Shown here: positions 3,089-36,069 of the stretch, one piece after another | Numbering within the stretch: the first letter of the stretch is position 1 | Layout of the letters: each line of letters starts with the position of its first letter | From: Alphaproteobacteria bacterium | GTDB lineage: Bacteria; Pseudomonadota; Alphaproteobacteria; UBA9219 | Length of the DNA stretch: 39,592 bases | Direction: 5' to 3' | Assembly (NCBI GenBank): GCA_028866275.1 | Contig: JAGWIK010000018.1 | Location: 1-39,592, forward strand | Program-made: the position numbers and the translations under genes | The notes under the pieces: model-generated | Told to the model about the DNA's origin: nothing | The model's input: only the letters and a program-made list of their open reading frames with translations | The model's database searches: none

Positions 3089-3113
3089 CACAGCCCGTCC
3101 CTTTGCTTACGAG
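3085..3113 (+). promoter_or_regulatory. Candidate promoter of the TonB receptor gene
   Basis: A perfect -35 hexamer TTGACA (3085-3090) overlaps the zur stop codon. After 17 bp comes a weak -10, TACGAG (3108-3113). The expected transcription start falls on the palindrome at 3118-3129, a suitable position for repression. The -10 match is poor, so the exact promoter is uncertain. Confidence 0.4.
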
Positions 3114-3132
3114 TGTTATGTTATAACATTTC
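3114..3132. promoter_or_regulatory. Zur-box-like operator
   Basis: The core ATGTTATAACAT (3118-3129) is a perfect 12-bp palindrome, within the wider TGTTATGTTATAACATTTC. It closely resembles the published proteobacterial Zur operators built around GTTATAAC with flanking ATTTC. It sits between zur and the receptor start, 17 bp ahead of the ATG at 3146. A zur homologue directly upstream makes autologous zinc control of the receptor the natural reading. Confidence 0.7.
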
Positions 3133-3145
3133 GGAGCCTTGCCCC

Positions 3146-5503
3146 ATGAAACGCGCCGTATTTGCCGCCGCCTTGCTGTTTTCGCCTTTGTGCGCCCTGC
3201 CCGCCTATGCCGCCGATGCCAGCGTCGACGGCATGTTGCGCGGCGCGGACGGCCAGCCGTTGGCGCAGACGCAGATCAAATTGCAAGACGGGCGCGGCAG
3301 GATCGCGCAAAGCGCCATAACCGACGCGCGCGGCCATTACGCCTTTACCCATGTGCCGGTCGGCAGCTATGTGCTGCTGGCGATGCAGAAAGATGCCGTT
3401 CTGGGATCGTCGCATGTGTCGGTTTATGCCGGTCAACCCGCGCATCGGGACATCGACCTTGCCCGGAAACAGGAAATGAACGTCGTCATCGGGCAACCGG
3501 CGCCGACATTCCAGAACAGCCTGTCGCCGACGACGGGGACGAATTCCTACAAAATGGACGCCAAGGCTATCGCGGCGTTGCCGCAAGGCGACGACACGCC
3601 GTTGGACAAAATCCTGTTGCAGACGCCCGGCGTCGCCGAGGATTCCGCCGCCAGCGGCAGCCTGCACATCCGCGGCGAACATGCCAATGTGCAATACCGG
3701 TTGAACGGTATTTTATTGCCGGACGGCATCGACGGTTTCGGCGAGATGATCGACCCGCATATTATCGAAAGCGCCACGCTTCTGGACGGCGCGCTGCCCG
3801 CGCAATACGGGTTCCACACGGCGGGCATTGTCGATATCGACACCAAGACGGGTTTCGAAAATGGCGGCACGGCGGAAATCATGGGCGGCAGCAACGGCAC
3901 GTTGCAGCCGTCGATAAGTTATGGCGGCACGACGGGCGACGCCGATTATTTTCTGGCTGCCAGCCATCTGTCGTCCGATCTCGGCATCGAAAATCCGACA
4001 TCGGGGCATAATGCCATTCACGACCACACCGAACAGGACAAGCAGTTTGGCTATGCGTCCTATATGATCAATTCGATGCAGCGGCTTGAGCTTATCGCGG
4101 GCAATTCTATCAGTTATTTCCAGATTCCCAACAACCCGAACCAGCCTGCCGCCTACACCATCGCAGGCGCCAACGGCATGAATTCGGCGTCGGTCAACGA
4201 CCGCCAGTTCGAAAGCAACCAGTTCGCGACCGCCGCGTGGCAGGGCCAGAATGACGGCGTCACGATGCAGATCGCGCCCTATATCCGCAATTCAGAAACG
4301 CATTACCGTCCCGATGTGGCGGGCGACCTGACCTTCAACGGCGTGGCGTCGGACGTGCAATATACCGATCTTGCCACCGGTTTGCAGAACGACAATAGCT
4401 GGCGCGTCAATCGCGACCATACGCTGCGCGCCGGTTTCACCGTGCAGAACGACCACATACAGGACAACAGCAATTCTATCGCCCTTTTAACCGGCGCCGG
4501 CGGCGCGGTTCTGACCGATGGCAGCGGCAATGCCATCGAATCCGCCCCCATTGTCAACAATCACAGCAAGGACGGGCAGTTATACGGCCTTTACCTGCAG
4601 GACGAATGGAAGATCAACGACAAACTGACGGTGAATTACGGCGCGCGTTTCGACGATATGGAACAATATGTCAGCGCCAACCAGTTAAGCCCGCGCGTCG
4701 GGTTGGTTTACAAGGCGACCGACACCACGACATTCCATGCCGGTTATGCGCGGTATTTCACCCCGCCGCCGATGGAGTTGGTATCGAACGGCGATATCGC
4801 CGGTTTTGCCAATACCACAAACGCCCCCGCCATTACGCAAAACGACGCCGTCAAACCCGAACGGTCGCATAATTTCGATGTCGGCGTGACGCAGAAACTC
4901 GGCGCGCATTGGGAAATCGGCAACGATGCCTATTACAAGCTGGTGCATGATCTGCTCGACGAAGGGCAATTCGGCCCCGCGCTTATTCTGACGCCGTTCA
5001 ATTACCAGCACGGCTATATTTATGGCGACGAAATCACGGCGAATTATACCGGCGACCGGTTGAAGGCCTATGCCAATTTCGCGTTCTCGCGCGCCATGGG
5101 GGAAAATGTCGTGTCGTCGCAGTTCAATTTCACCGACCCCGCCGAATTGGCCTATATCGGCGACCATTACGTGCATCTGGACCACGACCAGACCTATACC
5201 GCGTCGGCGGGCGCAACCTATGACATCACCGGCGACGATCAGGCCGGTATCGACGGCCATTTCGGCAGCGGGTTGCGCGACGGCTTCGCCAACACCAGCC
5301 ATTTGCCGCCTTATGCCACTTTTGACCTGAGCGCGGAGCACAAAATGCATTTCTTCGAACATGACGAGACCGCCGTGCGCTTGAGCGTCATTAACGTCAT
5401 GGATAGCGCCTATGAATTGCGTAGCGGCACGGGGATTGGAGTCGGCGCACCGCAATGGGGTTCCCGTCGCGGATTCTTTATCGCCGTGTCGCAGAAGTTC
5501 TAG
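3146..5503 (+). CDS. TonB-dependent outer-membrane receptor with N-terminal carboxypeptidase-regulatory-like domain, probably Zur-controlled
   Basis: A 785-residue outer-membrane receptor. The ATG at 3146 is preferred because it opens a clean signal peptide (1-22, ending AYA) and lies downstream of the operator. After cleavage comes a carboxypeptidase-regulatory-like Ig domain (about 27-100: SVDGMLRGADGQPLAQTQIKL and DARGHYAFTHVPVGSYVLLA). Next is a plug domain (about 125-240) with LDKILLQTPGVAEDS, LHIRGEHANVQYRLNGILLPDG and GALPAQYGFHTAGIVDI, then a 22-strand-type barrel. The last strand is RRGFFIAVSQKF with the terminal Phe needed by the BAM complex. Loops contain His/Asp clusters such as HNAIHDHTEQD and HYVHLDHDQTY that could bind metal. 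Together with the Zur-box this suggests zinc or zinc-chelate import (ZnuD-like role), but the substrate is inferred. The codons of the last 14 residues are repeated twice downstream. Confidence 0.88.
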   Translation: MKRAVFAAALLFSPLCALPAYAADASVDGMLRGADGQPLAQTQIKLQDGRGRIAQSAITDARGHYAFTHVPVGSYVLLAMQKDAVLGSSHVSVYAGQPAHRDIDLARKQEMNVVIGQPAPTFQNSLSPTTGTNSYKMDAKAIAALPQGDDTPLDKILLQTPGVAEDSAASGSLHIRGEHANVQYRLNGILLPDGIDGFGEMIDPHIIESATLLDGALPAQYGFHTAGIVDIDTKTGFENGGTAEIMGGSNGTLQPSISYGGTTGDADYFLAASHLSSDLGIENPTSGHNAIHDHTEQDKQFGYASYMINSMQRLELIAGNSISYFQIPNNPNQPAAYTIAGANGMNSASVNDRQFESNQFATAAWQGQNDGVTMQIAPYIRNSETHYRPDVAGDLTFNGVASDVQYTDLATGLQNDNSWRVNRDHTLRAGFTVQNDHIQDNSNSIALLTGAGGAVLTDGSGNAIESAPIVNNHSKDGQLYGLYLQDEWKINDKLTVNYGARFDDMEQYVSANQLSPRVGLVYKATDTTTFHAGYARYFTPPPMELVSNGDIAGFANTTNAPAITQNDAVKPERSHNFDVGVTQKLGAHWEIGNDAYYKLVHDLLDEGQFGPALILTPFNYQHGYIYGDEITANYTGDRLKAYANFAFSRAMGENVVSSQFNFTDPAELAYIGDHYVHLDHDQTYTASAGATYDITGDDQAGIDGHFGSGLRDGFANTSHLPPYATFDLSAEHKMHFFEHDETAVRLSVINVMDSAYELRSGTGIGVGAPQWGSRRGFFIAVSQKF

Positions 5504-5723
5504 CCGCCATCTATCCTGATGTCCTGCGATTCACGTCCGGCGAAGCCGCCGGACGACCGCAGGACGGGGGTTCCCGCCGCGGGTTCTTTATCGCCGTATC
5601 ACAGAAGTTCTAGCCGCCATCTATCCTGATGTCCTGCGATTCACGTCCGGCGAAGCCGCCGGACGACCGCAGGACGGGGGCTCGCGCCGCGGATTCTTCA
5701 TCGCCGTGTCGCAGAAATTTTAG
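5459..5723. repeat. 110-bp tandem array of receptor C-terminal tail codons plus palindromic spacer (2.4 copies)
   Basis: Units lie at 5459-5568, 5569-5678 and 5679-5723 (partial), period exactly 110 bp. Each unit begins with 45 bp encoding GSRRGFFIAVSQKF and a TAG stop, followed in the first two by an identical 65-bp spacer. Tail 1 is the real end of the receptor gene; tails 2 and 3 are out of frame with it and lie beyond its stop. The three tails differ at 4, 6 and 8 positions in pairwise comparison, and all changes are synonymous. The spacer carries a nested palindrome at 5521-5565 and again at 5631-5675. Confidence 0.95.
5521..5565. repeat. Nested palindrome in the array spacer (copy 1; copy 2 at 5631-5675)
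   Basis: Outer arms GTCCTGCG (5521-5528) and CGCAGGAC (5558-5565) enclose inner arms GTCCGGCG (5535-5542) and CGCCGGAC (5547-5554) around AAGC. Both stems are perfect 8-mers separated by a 6/3-nt internal loop. It could fold as a transcript terminator-like hairpin, but no T-run follows, and its form is closer to a REP-type palindromic unit. Confidence 0.85.
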
Positions 5724-5741
5724 GGCCGGAAGCGGGCCTTC

Positions 5742-6668
5742 TTATTCCGGCGTGGCGAATTCGATCGCGCCGCCTTTATGTTTTTTGGCGCGATACATCG
5801 CCGCGTCGGCGCGGCGCAGTAAATCTTCGCCTTCCGGATCGGCATTGCCGTTATGGCTGACGGCAATGCCGATGCTCGCGCCGACCGTCATTTGCCGCGC
5901 GCAGGCGATGACGGGGCGTTGGATCATGTCCACCAGTTTGCGCGCAATCGCGGCGCAGGCGGCGTTCGATTCGGCGTTTTCGATCAATATGGTGAATTCG
6001 TCGCCGCCGAAACGACCGGCAAGGTCATAGGGGCGCAGGCATTGCGGAATGCGGCGACCGATTTCCCGCAAAACCGCATCGCCCGCGGCATGGCCGTGCC
6101 TGTCATTGACGGATTTGAACCCGTCGAGATCGATCATCATCAAGGCGACGGGCTGACCCGACCGGTCGTGCCGCGCCATGGCCGCCGCCAGCCGTTGCTG
6201 GAAAAAATAGCGGTTCGCCAGCCCCGTCAGCGCGTCGTAATGCGCCAGGGCCTGCATCGATTTTTCGCGCTTCTTGCGTTGCATCGCGTAGCGCAGGCTG
6301 CGGCGCAGGCTGTTGCGGTCTATCTTGTCCTTCAACAAATAATCCTGCGCGCCGCCGGCCACGGCCTGTTCGGCCACGGCCACGTCGTCGCGCCCGGTCA
6401 GGATGATGACCGGCACATGAGGCGCGACGGATTGCACATTCTGCAGGCCGCTGAGTTCTTCGGTGTCGGGCAGCATAAGATCCAGCATCACGGCATCGAT
6501 CGGTTCGCCGGAAAAAAGCGGCAACGCGCTTTTCAACGTCGGCGCGTGCCGGATATGGAAAATGTCGCCGTCATCGCCGGCGAGATAGGATTGCACCAGC
6601 GCGGCATCGCTGTCGGTGTCTTCGATCAGGACAAGATTGGTGGCCGCGGCGTAAGGCGATGCGGTCAT
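5742..6668 (-). CDS. Response regulator with GGDEF output (diguanylate cyclase)
   Basis: A 308-residue protein with a receiver domain (about 10-130; phosphoacceptor Asp63 in VMLDLMLPD, acidic Glu16-Asp17, Lys113 in YLLKDK) and a GGDEF domain (about 140-305). The signature GGDEF is intact at 221-225, and the inhibitory I-site RxxD is present as RPYD (212-215), exactly five residues before GGDEF. It should therefore be an active, product-inhibited cyclase making c-di-GMP from two GTP when phosphorylated. It is the last gene of a minus-strand operon: its ATG overlaps the stop of the upstream kinase by ATGA. It is the only recognisable output domain among the signalling genes at 5742-12188, so it is the likely end point of the island. 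Confidence 0.93.
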   Translation of the reverse strand: MTASPYAAATNLVLIEDTDSDAALVQSYLAGDDGDIFHIRHAPTLKSALPLFSGEPIDAVMLDLMLPDTEELSGLQNVQSVAPHVPVIILTGRDDVAVAEQAVAGGAQDYLLKDKIDRNSLRRSLRYAMQRKKREKSMQALAHYDALTGLANRYFFQQRLAAAMARHDRSGQPVALMMIDLDGFKSVNDRHGHAAGDAVLREIGRRIPQCLRPYDLAGRFGGDEFTILIENAESNAACAAIARKLVDMIQRPVIACARQMTVGASIGIAVSHNGNADPEGEDLLRRADAAMYRAKKHKGGAIEFATPE

Positions 6669-24673: not shown

Positions 24674-24748
24674 TTCCAATATCCCCCAGAGCCTTTTCCG
24701 GATAGGCAGAACCGGCATTCGCCGGAAAAGCCTCTGTTTTTTTGTTTA

Positions 24749-24811
24749 AGACCGGCGATTCACCGTTAATGTGGAACCATAAAATGGTTCCACATTAACG
24801 GATCGCGGTCT
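24749..24811. repeat. 63-bp inverted repeat with an 18-bp perfect stem between sdhE and recG
   Basis: Arm CCGTTAATGTGGAACCAT (24763-24780) is matched exactly by 24784-24801 across a 3-base loop AAA. Outer arms AGACCG.CGAT (24749-24759) and ATCGCGGTCT (24802-24811) extend it with one bulge and a small internal loop. No T-run flanks it on either side, so it is not a standard terminator. Its right arm overlaps the expected -35 region of recG. Confidence 0.95.
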
Positions 24812-24829
24812 AATTTACGGGCAAAGCTT

Positions 24830-31238: not shown

Positions 31239-33194
31239 ATGGCGCATTCAACGGGATCGGCGGAAACGAAAAAGAGCAAACGCGGCGCGACGAGCTATGA
31301 CCGCGGCGCGGCGATGCTGCGCGCGCAAATCAAGACCCTGCCCGCGCAGCCCGGCGTGTACCGCATGATCGGCCATGACGGCACGCCTTTATATGTCGGC
31401 AAGGCCAAGGATTTGTCGAAACGCGTGGCGTCCTATACCCAGCGCGCGCGCTTGCCGGTGCGGCTGCAACGCATGGTCGCGCTGGCGCAAAATCTTGAAA
31501 TCACCGTCACGCGCACGGAAACCGAAGCCTTGTTGCTGGAAGCCAATTACATCCAGAAATTCCTGCCGCCTTTCAACATTCTGCTGCGCGACGATAAAAG
31601 CTATCCCTATATCCTGATTACCCGCCCCCCTGCGCCAAGGCTTCGGGGGGCAAGCGATCACACGCTAAAATCCACCAAACCGGATTTCGAAGATTTCCCG
31701 CAGATCGCCAAGCATCGCGGCGCGAAAAACCGCAAGGGCTGGTATTTCGGGCCTTTCGCGTCGGGCGCGGCGGTGACGGAAACGCTGACGCTGCTGCAAC
31801 GCGGGTTCATGCTGCGCAATTGCAGCGACAGTTATTTTGCCAACCGGTCGCGTCCTTGCCTGCAATATCACATCAAACGCTGCACCGCCCCTTGCGTCGG
31901 CAAGGTCGGCAAGGAAGAATATGCCAAGCAGACCGCCGACGCCGTCGATTTTCTGAAAGGCCGCAACCAGGATGTGCAGCACAAGCTGGCAACACAGATG
32001 CAGGCCGCCAGCGACGCGCTGGATTTCGAAACGGCGGCGCGGCTGCGCGATCGCATTAAAATCCTGACATCCATACAGGCGAAGCAAAGCATTCATGTCG
32101 AAGGCCTGCGCGACGCCGATGTTATCGCCTTACATCAAAATAGCGGCAAAACCGCGGTGCAGGTGTTTTTCTTCCGCGAGGGCCGCAATTACGGCGCGCG
32201 GGTTTTTTATCCGGCGCATGATAAGACCGACAGCGCCGCCGACATTATGGCCGCGTTCATCGCGCAGTTTTATGCGGGCAAGCCCGCGCCTTCGCTTCTG
32301 CTGCTGGATCGCGCGCCGTCGGATGCCGAATTGCTGGCGGCGGCTTTGTCGGAACAGGCGCAGCACAAAGTCCACATTACCGTGCCGCAGGCCGGCGATA
32401 AAAAACGCCTGATCGACATGGCGCAGCATAACGCGCAAGAGTCGCTGGCCCGCACGATGGCCGAACGCGACGAACAGGTGCGGTTGATGAACCGCGTCGC
32501 CGAGATTTTCGGCATGGCCGCACCGCCCAAACGGATCGAGGTCTATGACAATTCGCATATTCAGGGCAGTTTCGCGGTCGGCGCGATGATCGCGGCGGGG
32601 CCGGAAGGGTTTTTGAAAAAGACCTATCGCAAATTCAATATTCGCCACGCGCAAAGCAACGACGATTTCGGCATGATGCGCGAAGTTCTGACGCGGCGGT
32701 TCCAACGGCTGATGACCGAAGACCCCGAGCGGGGAACCGGCTTGTGGCCCGATCTGTTGTTGATCGACGGCGGCGCCGGACAGCTGGGCAAAGTCGCCGC
32801 CGTAATGGATGAAATGGGCGTGGGCGATATTGCCGTTGTCGGCATCGCCAAAGGGCCGGACCGCAATGCCGGCCGCGAACGGTTTTTCGTGCCCGGGCGC
32901 GAACCGTTTACCCTGCCCCATGACGATCCGGCCCTGTATTACCTGCAACGGTTGCGCGACGAAGCCCACCGTTTCGCCATCGGCACGCATCGCGCCCGCC
33001 GCGCCAAAGCCATCGGCCAGTCGCGGCTGGACGAGGTTCCCGGCATCGGCGCCAGCCGGAAACGCGCGCTTTTGCATCATTTCGGGTCAGCCAAGGCGGT
33101 CGAGGCGGCGGATATCGAAGCCCTGACCCGCGCCCCGGGCATCAGCCGCGCCGTGGCGCAAAAAATCCATGATTATTTCCGCGAAGGCCGCTAA
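31239..33194 (+). CDS. uvrC: Excinuclease ABC subunit C
   Basis: A 651-residue nucleotide-excision-repair nuclease. The GIY-YIG domain (about 35-115) shows PAQPGVYRMIG and LYVGKAKDLSKRVASYTQ. Then come RDDKSYPYILIT, the Cys-rich FeS-like region RPCLQYHIKRCTAPCVGK, a UVR motif (about 245-280), the RNase-H-like endonuclease with IEVYDNSHIQGS and PDLLLIDGGAGQL, and C-terminal helix-hairpin-helix motifs (DEVPGIGASRKRALLHHFGS). It makes both incisions around damage with UvrAB. Between ILIT and DFPQIAKHRGAKNRKGWYFGPFA there is an extra stretch of roughly 20 residues (about 129-148) that family members normally lack. Its DNA includes a palindrome. Confidence 0.96.
   Translation: MAHSTGSAETKKSKRGATSYDRGAAMLRAQIKTLPAQPGVYRMIGHDGTPLYVGKAKDLSKRVASYTQRARLPVRLQRMVALAQNLEITVTRTETEALLLEANYIQKFLPPFNILLRDDKSYPYILITRPPAPRLRGASDHTLKSTKPDFEDFPQIAKHRGAKNRKGWYFGPFASGAAVTETLTLLQRGFMLRNCSDSYFANRSRPCLQYHIKRCTAPCVGKVGKEEYAKQTADAVDFLKGRNQDVQHKLATQMQAASDALDFETAARLRDRIKILTSIQAKQSIHVEGLRDADVIALHQNSGKTAVQVFFFREGRNYGARVFYPAHDKTDSAADIMAAFIAQFYAGKPAPSLLLLDRAPSDAELLAAALSEQAQHKVHITVPQAGDKKRLIDMAQHNAQESLARTMAERDEQVRLMNRVAEIFGMAAPPKRIEVYDNSHIQGSFAVGAMIAAGPEGFLKKTYRKFNIRHAQSNDDFGMMREVLTRRFQRLMTEDPERGTGLWPDLLLIDGGAGQLGKVAAVMDEMGVGDIAVVGIAKGPDRNAGRERFFVPGREPFTLPHDDPALYYLQRLRDEAHRFAIGTHRARRAKAIGQSRLDEVPGIGASRKRALLHHFGSAKAVEAADIEALTRAPGISRAVAQKIHDYFREGR
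31624..31651. repeat. 28-bp imperfect palindrome inside uvrC
   Basis: Arms GCCCCCC (31624-31630) and GGGGGGC (31645-31651) enclose a second stem GCC-AA-GGC separated by symmetric 3-base loops. It encodes part of the extra segment PPAPRLRGAS of UvrC. Confidence 0.75.
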
Positions 33195-34281: not shown

Positions 34282-36069
34282 ATGATCGATTTGTCGATGG
34301 CCGATCCCGAACACAATCTGCGTCCCCGTCTGACCGTCATGGGTGTCGGCGGCGCGGGCGGCAACGCCATCAACAATATGATCCGTTGCCAGCTTGAAGG
34401 CTGCGACTTTATCGCCGCCAATACCGACAGCCAGGCTTTGGCCCTGTCGCTGGCCAGCCGCAAGATCCAGCTGGGCGTCAATATGTCGCGCGGTCTGGGC
34501 GCAGGGTCGAAGGCCGATATGGGCCGCGCCGCCGCCGAGGAACAGATCGGCGATATCATGGCCGTGCTGGAAGGTTCGGACATGCTGTTCGTCACGGCGG
34601 GTATGGGCGGCGGCACGGGTACGGGCGCGGCCCCTGTGATTGCGCGCGCCGCGCGCGACAGCGGTATCCTGACCGTCGGCGTCGTGACCAAGCCGTTCCA
34701 TTTCGAAGGAAACAACCGCATGCGTCAGGCCGAAGCCGGCATCGCGGAATTGCAGCAATATGTCGATACGCTGATCGTCATTCCCAACCAGAATCTTTTC
34801 CGCATCGCCAACGAGCGCACGACATTCGCCGAGGCTTTCCGCCTTGCCGACGAAGTGCTGCATTGCGGCGTGCGCGGCATTACCGATCTGATGGTCATGC
34901 CGGGTTTCATGAATCTCGACTTCGCCGACGTCAAGACGGTGATGGGCGAAATGGGCAAGGCGATGATGGGCACCGGCGAAGCCGACGGCGACAACCGCGC
35001 CATTCGCGCCGCCGAGGCCGCCATTTCCAATCCGTTGCTTGACGATGTGTCGATGAAGGGCGCGCGCGGCGTGTTGATCAACATCACCGGCGGCATGGAC
35101 ATGACGCTGTTCGAAGTCGATCAGGCCGCGAACCGCATCCGCGAGGAAGTCGACCCCGAAGCGCAGATCAAGGTCGGTTCGACGCTGGGCGACAATCTGG
35201 AAGGCAAGATCCGCGTGTCGGTTATCGCCACCGGCATCGATGTTGCCGCATCGACCCGCGCCACCACCACGGTGTCGACGGCAACCGGTTCGGGCCGCAT
35301 GGCGCCCAAACAAGCCGCGCCGCAACAACAAGCCTATCGCGCCGCCATTCCGCCGCAAAACAGCCAACCGCAGAACATGCCGCAGAATGTGGTGACCCCG
35401 TCGGTCAGCGCGCAGACCAATTATTTCACTATGCAGCAGCCGCAACCGGCGCCGGTGCACGCGGCCCCCGCCCCGGAAGCCATCGCGCCACAGCGTCAAT
35501 CCGCGCCCATCGAGGAAGAAGCGGCGTATGACGACGCCCCCGCACAGGAAGTGGAAACAGTCGCCGTTTATGCGGAAGAGTTGGACATTGCGCCGGCGCC
35601 GCAAGCCAAGGCACCGGCACCGCAGCCCCGCGCGGCGCAGCCACAATCACAGCATCAGCCGCAGCATCAGTCTCAGCATCAACCGCAGGCGCGCGCCACG
35701 GCTCCGGCGTCGGGCATGACCACGCGCAGCGCGCAGCCCAGTTCGTCCACGCCGTTCGACATGCGTATGACGCAACTGACATCTGCCGCCGCGCCGCAAC
35801 AGTCGTCGTCGCAATCGGGCGGCGGGGCGGAACAACGCCGCCAGCGCCGCGCCGAATCCCTGTTCACGCGTATCACGGGTTTCGGCATGGTGCGGCCGTC
35901 GTCGCAGCATCACGAAGACGATCTCGATGAAAGCCAGTTGCCCGACGAACGTCTGGCCGACCAGCAACATCTGGGCGTCAACCCGTCGGATCGTCCGACC
36001 CTGTCGGCGGAACAGCCCGAAGATTTGCTGGAAATCCCGGCTTTCCTGCGGCGTCAGAACAACCATTAA
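34282..36069 (+). CDS. ftsZ: Cell division protein FtsZ
   Basis: A 595-residue tubulin homologue. The GTPase domain runs to about residue 325: [17 protein letters not shown], the tubulin signature [13 protein letters not shown] (about 110-122), [17 protein letters not shown], and the T7 region NLDFADVK. A long disordered linker (about 325-575) rich in Gln, Pro, Ala and His follows, including short QxQHQPQ-type repeats. The conserved tail is [11 protein letters not shown] for binding FtsA-type partners. ATG 34282 is fixed by CCGGAGG eight bases upstream; an earlier in-frame start at 34192 has no such site. The linker makes it longer than in E. coli, as is usual in alphaproteobacteria. A strong terminator follows. 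Confidence 0.97.

Follow-up and report, generated by a model that had tools for sequence, protein, structure and literature searches.

When a bacterial gene is replaced by that of a relative, the border is rarely visible. Certain integrative elements restore the gene end at their att site, as phage 21/e14 does in icd and SXT does in prfC. Here, we describe six loci, in three genomes of a single genus, at which a hairpin separates an intact gene from a truncated copy of its own end. Like the att-site elements, these loci have a recoded gene end supplied and the displaced native end beyond it. Unlike them, they lie at unrelated target genes, and at five of them no integrase gene or cargo lies between the copies, only a short spacer and a hairpin (49-93 nt, hairpin included).

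Gene ends are also displaced in the Rhs C-terminal arrays, for which recombination with circular intermediates was proposed (PMC2935791), and in the T6SS effector arrays of Vibrio, for which homology-facilitated illegitimate recombination was proposed (PMC5361080). As the available portions of these two papers describe them, the incoming end precedes the resident one and the displaced ends follow behind in the same orientation, an arrangement that we also find, with displaced ends beyond the intact gene and in its orientation. There, however, distinct toxin or immunity modules are displaced, whereas here the displaced ends comprise 12-23 codons of nearly the same peptide, with no differing toxin module among them (0-1 residue changed at five loci, 3 in a decayed miaB remnant). 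The loci here also differ from what those portions describe in affecting ordinary genes, 5' ends too, beside a single hairpin family. Rhs C-terminal and T6SS effector displacement appear to be the closest working resemblance, and we keep our loci apart from them rather than count them as members. Homology-facilitated illegitimate recombination has one homologous and one illegitimate end, as we propose below, but in the parts of the reports available to us the joint has no tie to a palindrome (PMC3240628, PMC5361080), while here it would lie at the hairpin. REP elements, in turn, are short dispersed palindromes, and their CGTC super-family is given as typical of Alphaproteobacteria in the text at hand (PMC3733652).

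Three synonymous tails at the end of a TonB-dependent receptor gene

The window, as we call the whole 39,592-nt stretch that was analyzed, carries an intact TonB-dependent receptor gene on the forward strand (3113-5503), with CarboxypepD_reg, Plug and beta-barrel domains by Pfam. As an earlier note on this DNA had correctly read, its in-frame C-terminal 14 codons and stop (T1, 5459-5503) recur twice downstream on the same strand, as T2 (5569-5613), which lacks a gene body, and T3 (5679-5723), with start-to-start steps of 110 and 110 bp. All three tails encode the peptide GSRRGFFIAVSQKF followed by a stop. T1 and T2 differ at 4 positions, T1 and T3 at 6, and T2 and T3 at 8, over nine variable codons, and every difference is synonymous and falls at codon position 3. 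The 65-nt spacers between them (spacer 1, 5504-5568; spacer 2, 5614-5678) have no difference at all; each contains a hairpin core, GCGATTCACG...CGACCGC (5526-5560 and 5636-5670), flanked by the outer arms GTCC/GGAC. Beyond T3, the flank leads to a convergent response-regulator/GGDEF gene on the reverse strand (5742-6668), whose end is 19 nt away. Tandem Repeats Finder reports five rows for the 39.6 kb window; the tail array leads with a score of 471, ahead of one with 71, and additional short tandem repeats lie at 32869-32918, 34598-34631 and 35636-35688. A terminator scan of 5400-5800 found none after T3.

The earlier note had also argued that this was not an old duplication drifting freely, and simulation bears this out. 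Under free drift the peptide was kept with P = 1e-4 for the 6 changes between T1 and T3; for the 8 between T2 and T3, none of 20,000 trials kept it. A softer model, with one fifth of the changes pre-assigned as synonymous, gave P = 0.004 and 7e-4, respectively. For T1 and T2 alone, the values were 0.004 under free drift and 0.027 in the softer model. The pattern in the window is unlike that of a duplication that merely drifted, and the tails look like formerly selected sequences.

If the tails had been copied from receptor paralogues under selection, as the earlier note suggested, then other receptors should be their source. The look of selection held up, and the paralogues did not: the receptor protein gives a single match in the window's own genome (G000), where the whole array, used as a nucleotide query, turns up no further tail locus. 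Among the six displayed 3' ends of receptor homologues (L020, L023, L024, L009, L010 and L011; L022 and L025 lie outside this comparison), all encode peptides other than the window tail. Since all tails encode one peptide, swapping them would change no residue. In one of these homologues (L020, from G006), a large inverted repeat with arms of ~33 nt (GTTGTTCGGTAGCGCGGGG...), unlike the window hairpin, comes after the receptor stop at 3840.

A dispersed family of covarying hairpins

The palindrome that the earlier note placed at the joint folds strongly (z = -4.7 as DNA and -4.2 as RNA), and the spacer hairpin is a member of a covarying family, GCGATTCA...GATCGC. In the window's genome, CCTGCGATTCACGTC has seven mismatch-free occurrences, of which the window holds two, the end of contig C14 three and the end of C55 two. 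More broadly, the pattern GCGATTCACG-N8..36-CGAYCGC is present in 12 of 96 genomes, the window's own included, and the reversed control pattern has 0 matches in all 96; some lone matches, being short (G036, G088), could have arisen by chance. The core GCGAT-TCA-CG / CG-A(T/C)-CGC is common to ten short copies that were aligned. Compensatory change marks their inner stem, where both sides have changed in 20 cells, compared with 7.1 for shuffles and with none of 500 shuffles reaching that count; two of the five covariation measures are weaker (16/500 for pairs changed on both sides, 380/500 for pair types). The outer arms pair in 78.9% of the cells of their helix, with exceptions. A covariance model recovers at least 62 copies in four of ten genus genomes (11 in G000, 10 in G002, 8 in G007 and 33 in G005); these counts are lower bounds, with 150 candidates scored per genome and both a shrunken copy on C11 and the C50 copies missed.

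In the broad sense, the hairpin counts as a dispersed REP-like palindrome: it occurs in many copies, and changes in one arm are compensated in the other. It resembles REP elements of the GTAG and CGTC super-families in being short and dispersed but, judging from its sequence, lacks their unpaired GTAG or CGTC tag: across the ten short copies GCGATTCACG and CG-A-CGC are invariant, and CGTC appears in some copies only and is paired there. It has instead the core GCGAT-TCA-CG / CG-AY-CGC with a TCA bulge, and duplicated gene ends form no part of the REP description in the available text (PMC3733652). Rfam gave 0 matches in the locus L001 and, in nine further loci, only two microRNA matches far below the gathering score. 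The Y1/RAYT transposase family PF01797 has no match in G000, G002 or G007 and one in G005, and we set RAYT transposition aside as a source on the grounds that the window's own genome has no Y1 match. In a viral collection, the pattern has three matches, two of which are one identical stretch inside a coding frame. None reads as a hairpin by sequence, and 5400-5760 has no plasmid match; on these viral and plasmid searches, a phage or plasmid origin was rejected. In the open-access papers searched, judged by title, nothing related was found for the GCGATTCACG core, and PMC12306157 contains neither of the hairpin motif terms looked for.

The window holds a second, long member of the family (24747-24814, forward strand, 68 nt) that ends in TAAGACC/GGTCTAAT, has no repeated flanks and is preceded by another inverted repeat and a T-run (~24688-24746). 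A similar copy in the same genome, C28:103451-103518, has the same kind of left block. Other alphaproteobacteria are rich in the same hairpin core, with 19 copies by pattern in G060 (L048, L059, L071, L076) and 70 in G076 (L064, L070, L075), several of which end in CTAG.

Repeated gene ends at six hairpin loci

Two of the six loci concern 3' ends, those of the receptor and of an ABC-transporter ATPase, and four concern 5' ends, of an hscB-like gene, a gspF-like gene and, twice, a miaB-like gene. Pfam supports the receptor, GGDEF, ABC, T2SSF and radical-SAM (UPF0004, TRAM) proteins; the hscB name rests on HSCB_C above the cut-off and DnaJ below it; and miaB, plsC, gspE, iscS and UDP-glucose dehydrogenase are names that we take from our own reading. 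The ATPase locus, in the window's genome, was read by eye across two contigs with the gap between them left open. On C14, the gene end is followed by hairpins in a 57-bp array, and C55 starts in the same array before a second gene end, the last 13 codons and stop, with 1 synonymous difference. As both contigs (L016 1-145, L015 1-131) end within this array, they are probably neighbours in the genome. In the same genome, C69 (L094) repeats an hscB-like start over 33 coding nt with 0 differences and a different ribosome-site region, and C11 (L168) repeats 14 codons of a miaB-like start beside a shrunken hairpin, with 5 differences, 3 of them residue-changing. The other miaB-like start, of 23 codons, is on C104 of G005 (L077) and has 9 differences and 1 changed residue. 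The gspF-like start (T2SSF), on C6 of G002 (L072), forms two 113-bp units with 3 synonymous differences, including CGC/AGA.

All six loci follow the same rules. The hairpin is oriented with the intact gene on its left and the truncated remnant on its right (6/6), and no more than a few nt (0-2 as we read the joints) separate the right outer arm from the start of the remnant. Likewise, at 6/6 loci, the similarity between copies ends at or within ~15 bp of the coding boundary: at the stop codon for the window, 4 nt downstream of it for C14/C55, and before the start by 0-1 nt in both miaB cases, 7 nt in gspF and ~14 nt in hscB. With such edges, the copies resemble orthologous gene ends with different flanks, not a blind target duplication. 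Taken together with the near-all-synonymous differences at five loci, this suggests that the copies behave like orthologous gene ends from diverged lineages. The decayed miaB remnant of G000 shows that an abandoned remnant can lose its peptide, and the synonymous-only remnants thus look like young copies of already diverged sequences. Copy-to-copy spacing is 91-163 bp at five loci, the C14/C55 gap standing outside this range estimate. By eye, the stretches from gene end to hairpin have no sequence common between loci. Several gene junctions read as tight: the miaB start overlaps the upstream stop in G002 and in the G005 remnant, 6 bp lie ahead of gspF, and ~9 bp separate the convergent stops at C55. 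With the six joints set side by side, without donor sequence, no microhomology of a few bp is evident.

Most tested hairpins lack a displaced end. In a self-comparison over 128.8 kb, direct repeats no shorter than 30 bp and no more than 600 bp apart numbered eight, each of them at a hairpin locus; 6 of its 8 stretches hold such a locus, chosen for it or given, and it missed the known C55 array and is thus incomplete. In G000, 4 of 9 known hairpin loci have a remnant (the window, C14/C55, C69 and C11), and the hairpins at C54, C50, C28, C2:24747 and C23 have none; in G005, a remnant lies beside 1 of more than 20 tested hairpins. In a flank test of 95 distinct strict-pattern sites with at least 25 nt of flank, the seven rows scoring at least 20 all fall at the window, C55, L072, L077 and L094, followed by L149 (G076) at 13 and then by 11. 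Among the tested sites outside the genus, the top flank score is 13, versus 20-72 at remnant loci. Another 42 GCGATTCACG sites in the genus were examined, many of them plain coding matches, and yielded the miaB locus of the window's own genome. Further flank checks covered 17 hairpins (six also among the 42 sites), C50 of the same genome and four G007 matches, one with 34 nt on one side; C35 of G007, C226 of G005 and part of the G076 (70 by pattern) and G060 (19) copies stood outside the flank tests. When the right flanks of 55 hairpins were compared with the rest of their locus, mostly 0.6-1.5 kb per side, only short matches appeared beyond the known loci, and no larger element between copies.

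Proposed origin of the displaced gene ends

The data are best read as a displacement of gene ends linked to the hairpin, which recurs at six loci and in three genomes of the genus. Import is what we infer to lie behind it, and we give about an even chance to the array being a recombination scar, in which a relative's gene end was brought in and the resident end left behind. DNA of a diverged relative would have been taken up, bringing the receptor gene (whole or only the 3' portion), the 3' flank native to that gene and a hairpin of the GCGATTCA/GATCGC family. The gene side would have been exchanged via homologous recombination. On the other side, an illegitimate joint would have linked the hairpin base to the resident gene, ~45 bp short of where that gene ends. 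In this way the incoming gene would be complete, and the last codons of the displaced resident gene would persist as the fossil T3. The identical spacers and differing tails need two later steps, a tandem duplication of the tail and spacer unit and a further allelic replacement at T1. The duplication would account for the two identical spacers, and ordinary recombination at the gene-side tail for the difference between T1 and T2. Spacer 1 would have stayed unchanged because a donor without the array is homologous only up to the stop codon.

Several observations speak against import. A nucleotide search and the relatives' receptor ends gave no donor with the window tail or spacer, the lineage signal in the G005 miaB copies is weak, the gspF copies tell no lineage apart, microhomology is not evident at the joints, and most tested hairpins lack a remnant. 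Import also gives no reason why the joint ends at a hairpin, and illegitimate joining is described as rare in the portion of the Vibrio report available (PMC5361080). ComEC is present, but equally so in the E. coli of the control set, and so does not demonstrate competence. The GCGATTCA/GATCGC hairpin may itself be an active end of gene exchange, as a folded single-strand end that is cut or protected at its base and through which relatives' DNA could be spliced in beside gene ends; we find this doubtful. If it is true, genes would be swapped between species at palindrome-marked borders, with both neighbour genes intact.

Mobile palindromes offer two other accounts. In one, which we consider unlikely but worth serious thought, the palindrome inserted with a long target duplication (40-70 bp) that spared tightly packed genes on both sides, and diverged alleles later took the place of the gene-side copy through ordinary recombination. 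The hairpin is indeed a dispersed covarying family, several sites read as tight gene junctions, and tandem duplication and T1 replacement are required under any reading; yet a target duplication has no reason to stop at the coding boundary at all six loci, most tested hairpins lack the flanking repeat, and, by eye, the segments linking gene end to hairpin have nothing in common from locus to locus. The similar copy spacing at five loci, the constant polarity and the intact host gene could also reflect a selfish palindrome that spares its host by carrying a ready-made, recoded gene end as an adaptation. Such an element is improbable: each locus has its own gene's end, so recombination would be needed to bring it, the window's own genome has no Y1 transposase match, and none of the three viral pattern matches reads as a hairpin.

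An old tandem duplication that then drifted is compatible with the drift-like miaB remnant of G000, and the C14/C55, hscB and gspF pairs differ at too few positions to rule it out, but at the window tails and at the G005 miaB pair (P = 0.004 and 0.003 in the softer model) too few residues have changed, and the window spacers are identical while the tails differ; we give pure drift very little credence. Assembly from mixed strains could produce artefacts at a palindromic repeat, and both C14 and C55 terminate inside the hairpin array, G005 is listed with 7% contamination, and G002 is probably a metagenome bin. That the arrangement occurs at six loci in three genomes, with the G002 locus ~100 kb inside a 365 kb contig, makes this quite improbable. 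As for the cassette-like store of spare barrel-terminating strands proposed in the earlier note, the tails are intact and in one orientation, but they all encode one peptide, their paralogue source was not found, and the same layout recurs at the ABC-ATPase 3' end and at hscB-, gspF- and miaB-like starts, which leaves it scarcely credible.

Were displacement by import confirmed in strains, palindrome and fossil gene end would mark a replacement border to the base, at several unrelated genes. They would offer a readable record of inter-lineage exchange and a testable recombination role for dispersed palindromes, beside termination and transposition.

The miaB and gspF copies allow comparison across lineages. 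The intact and remnant miaB starts of G005 differ at 9 of 69 nt, and those of six other genus genomes (G003, G007 and G009 being left aside) have 8-19 differences among themselves. The intact start is closest to G006 (5 differences) and the remnant to G000 (7), with G006 next at 8. Taken whole, the G005 gene falls in with G000 (support 0.815); the resemblance of the intact copy to G006 is limited to roughly its first 60 codons (23 versus 33 differences). These distances suggest that the two copies are as far apart as different lineages, with a weak signal as to which. Both gspF copies differ from G005 at 3 positions, as they do from each other, and so no lineage is told apart. In G007, a miaB match (L171; C185, 13129-14391) and the sequence itself begin at codon 24, the cut point of the G005 remnant, possibly because a repeated miaB start interrupted the assembly at that point.
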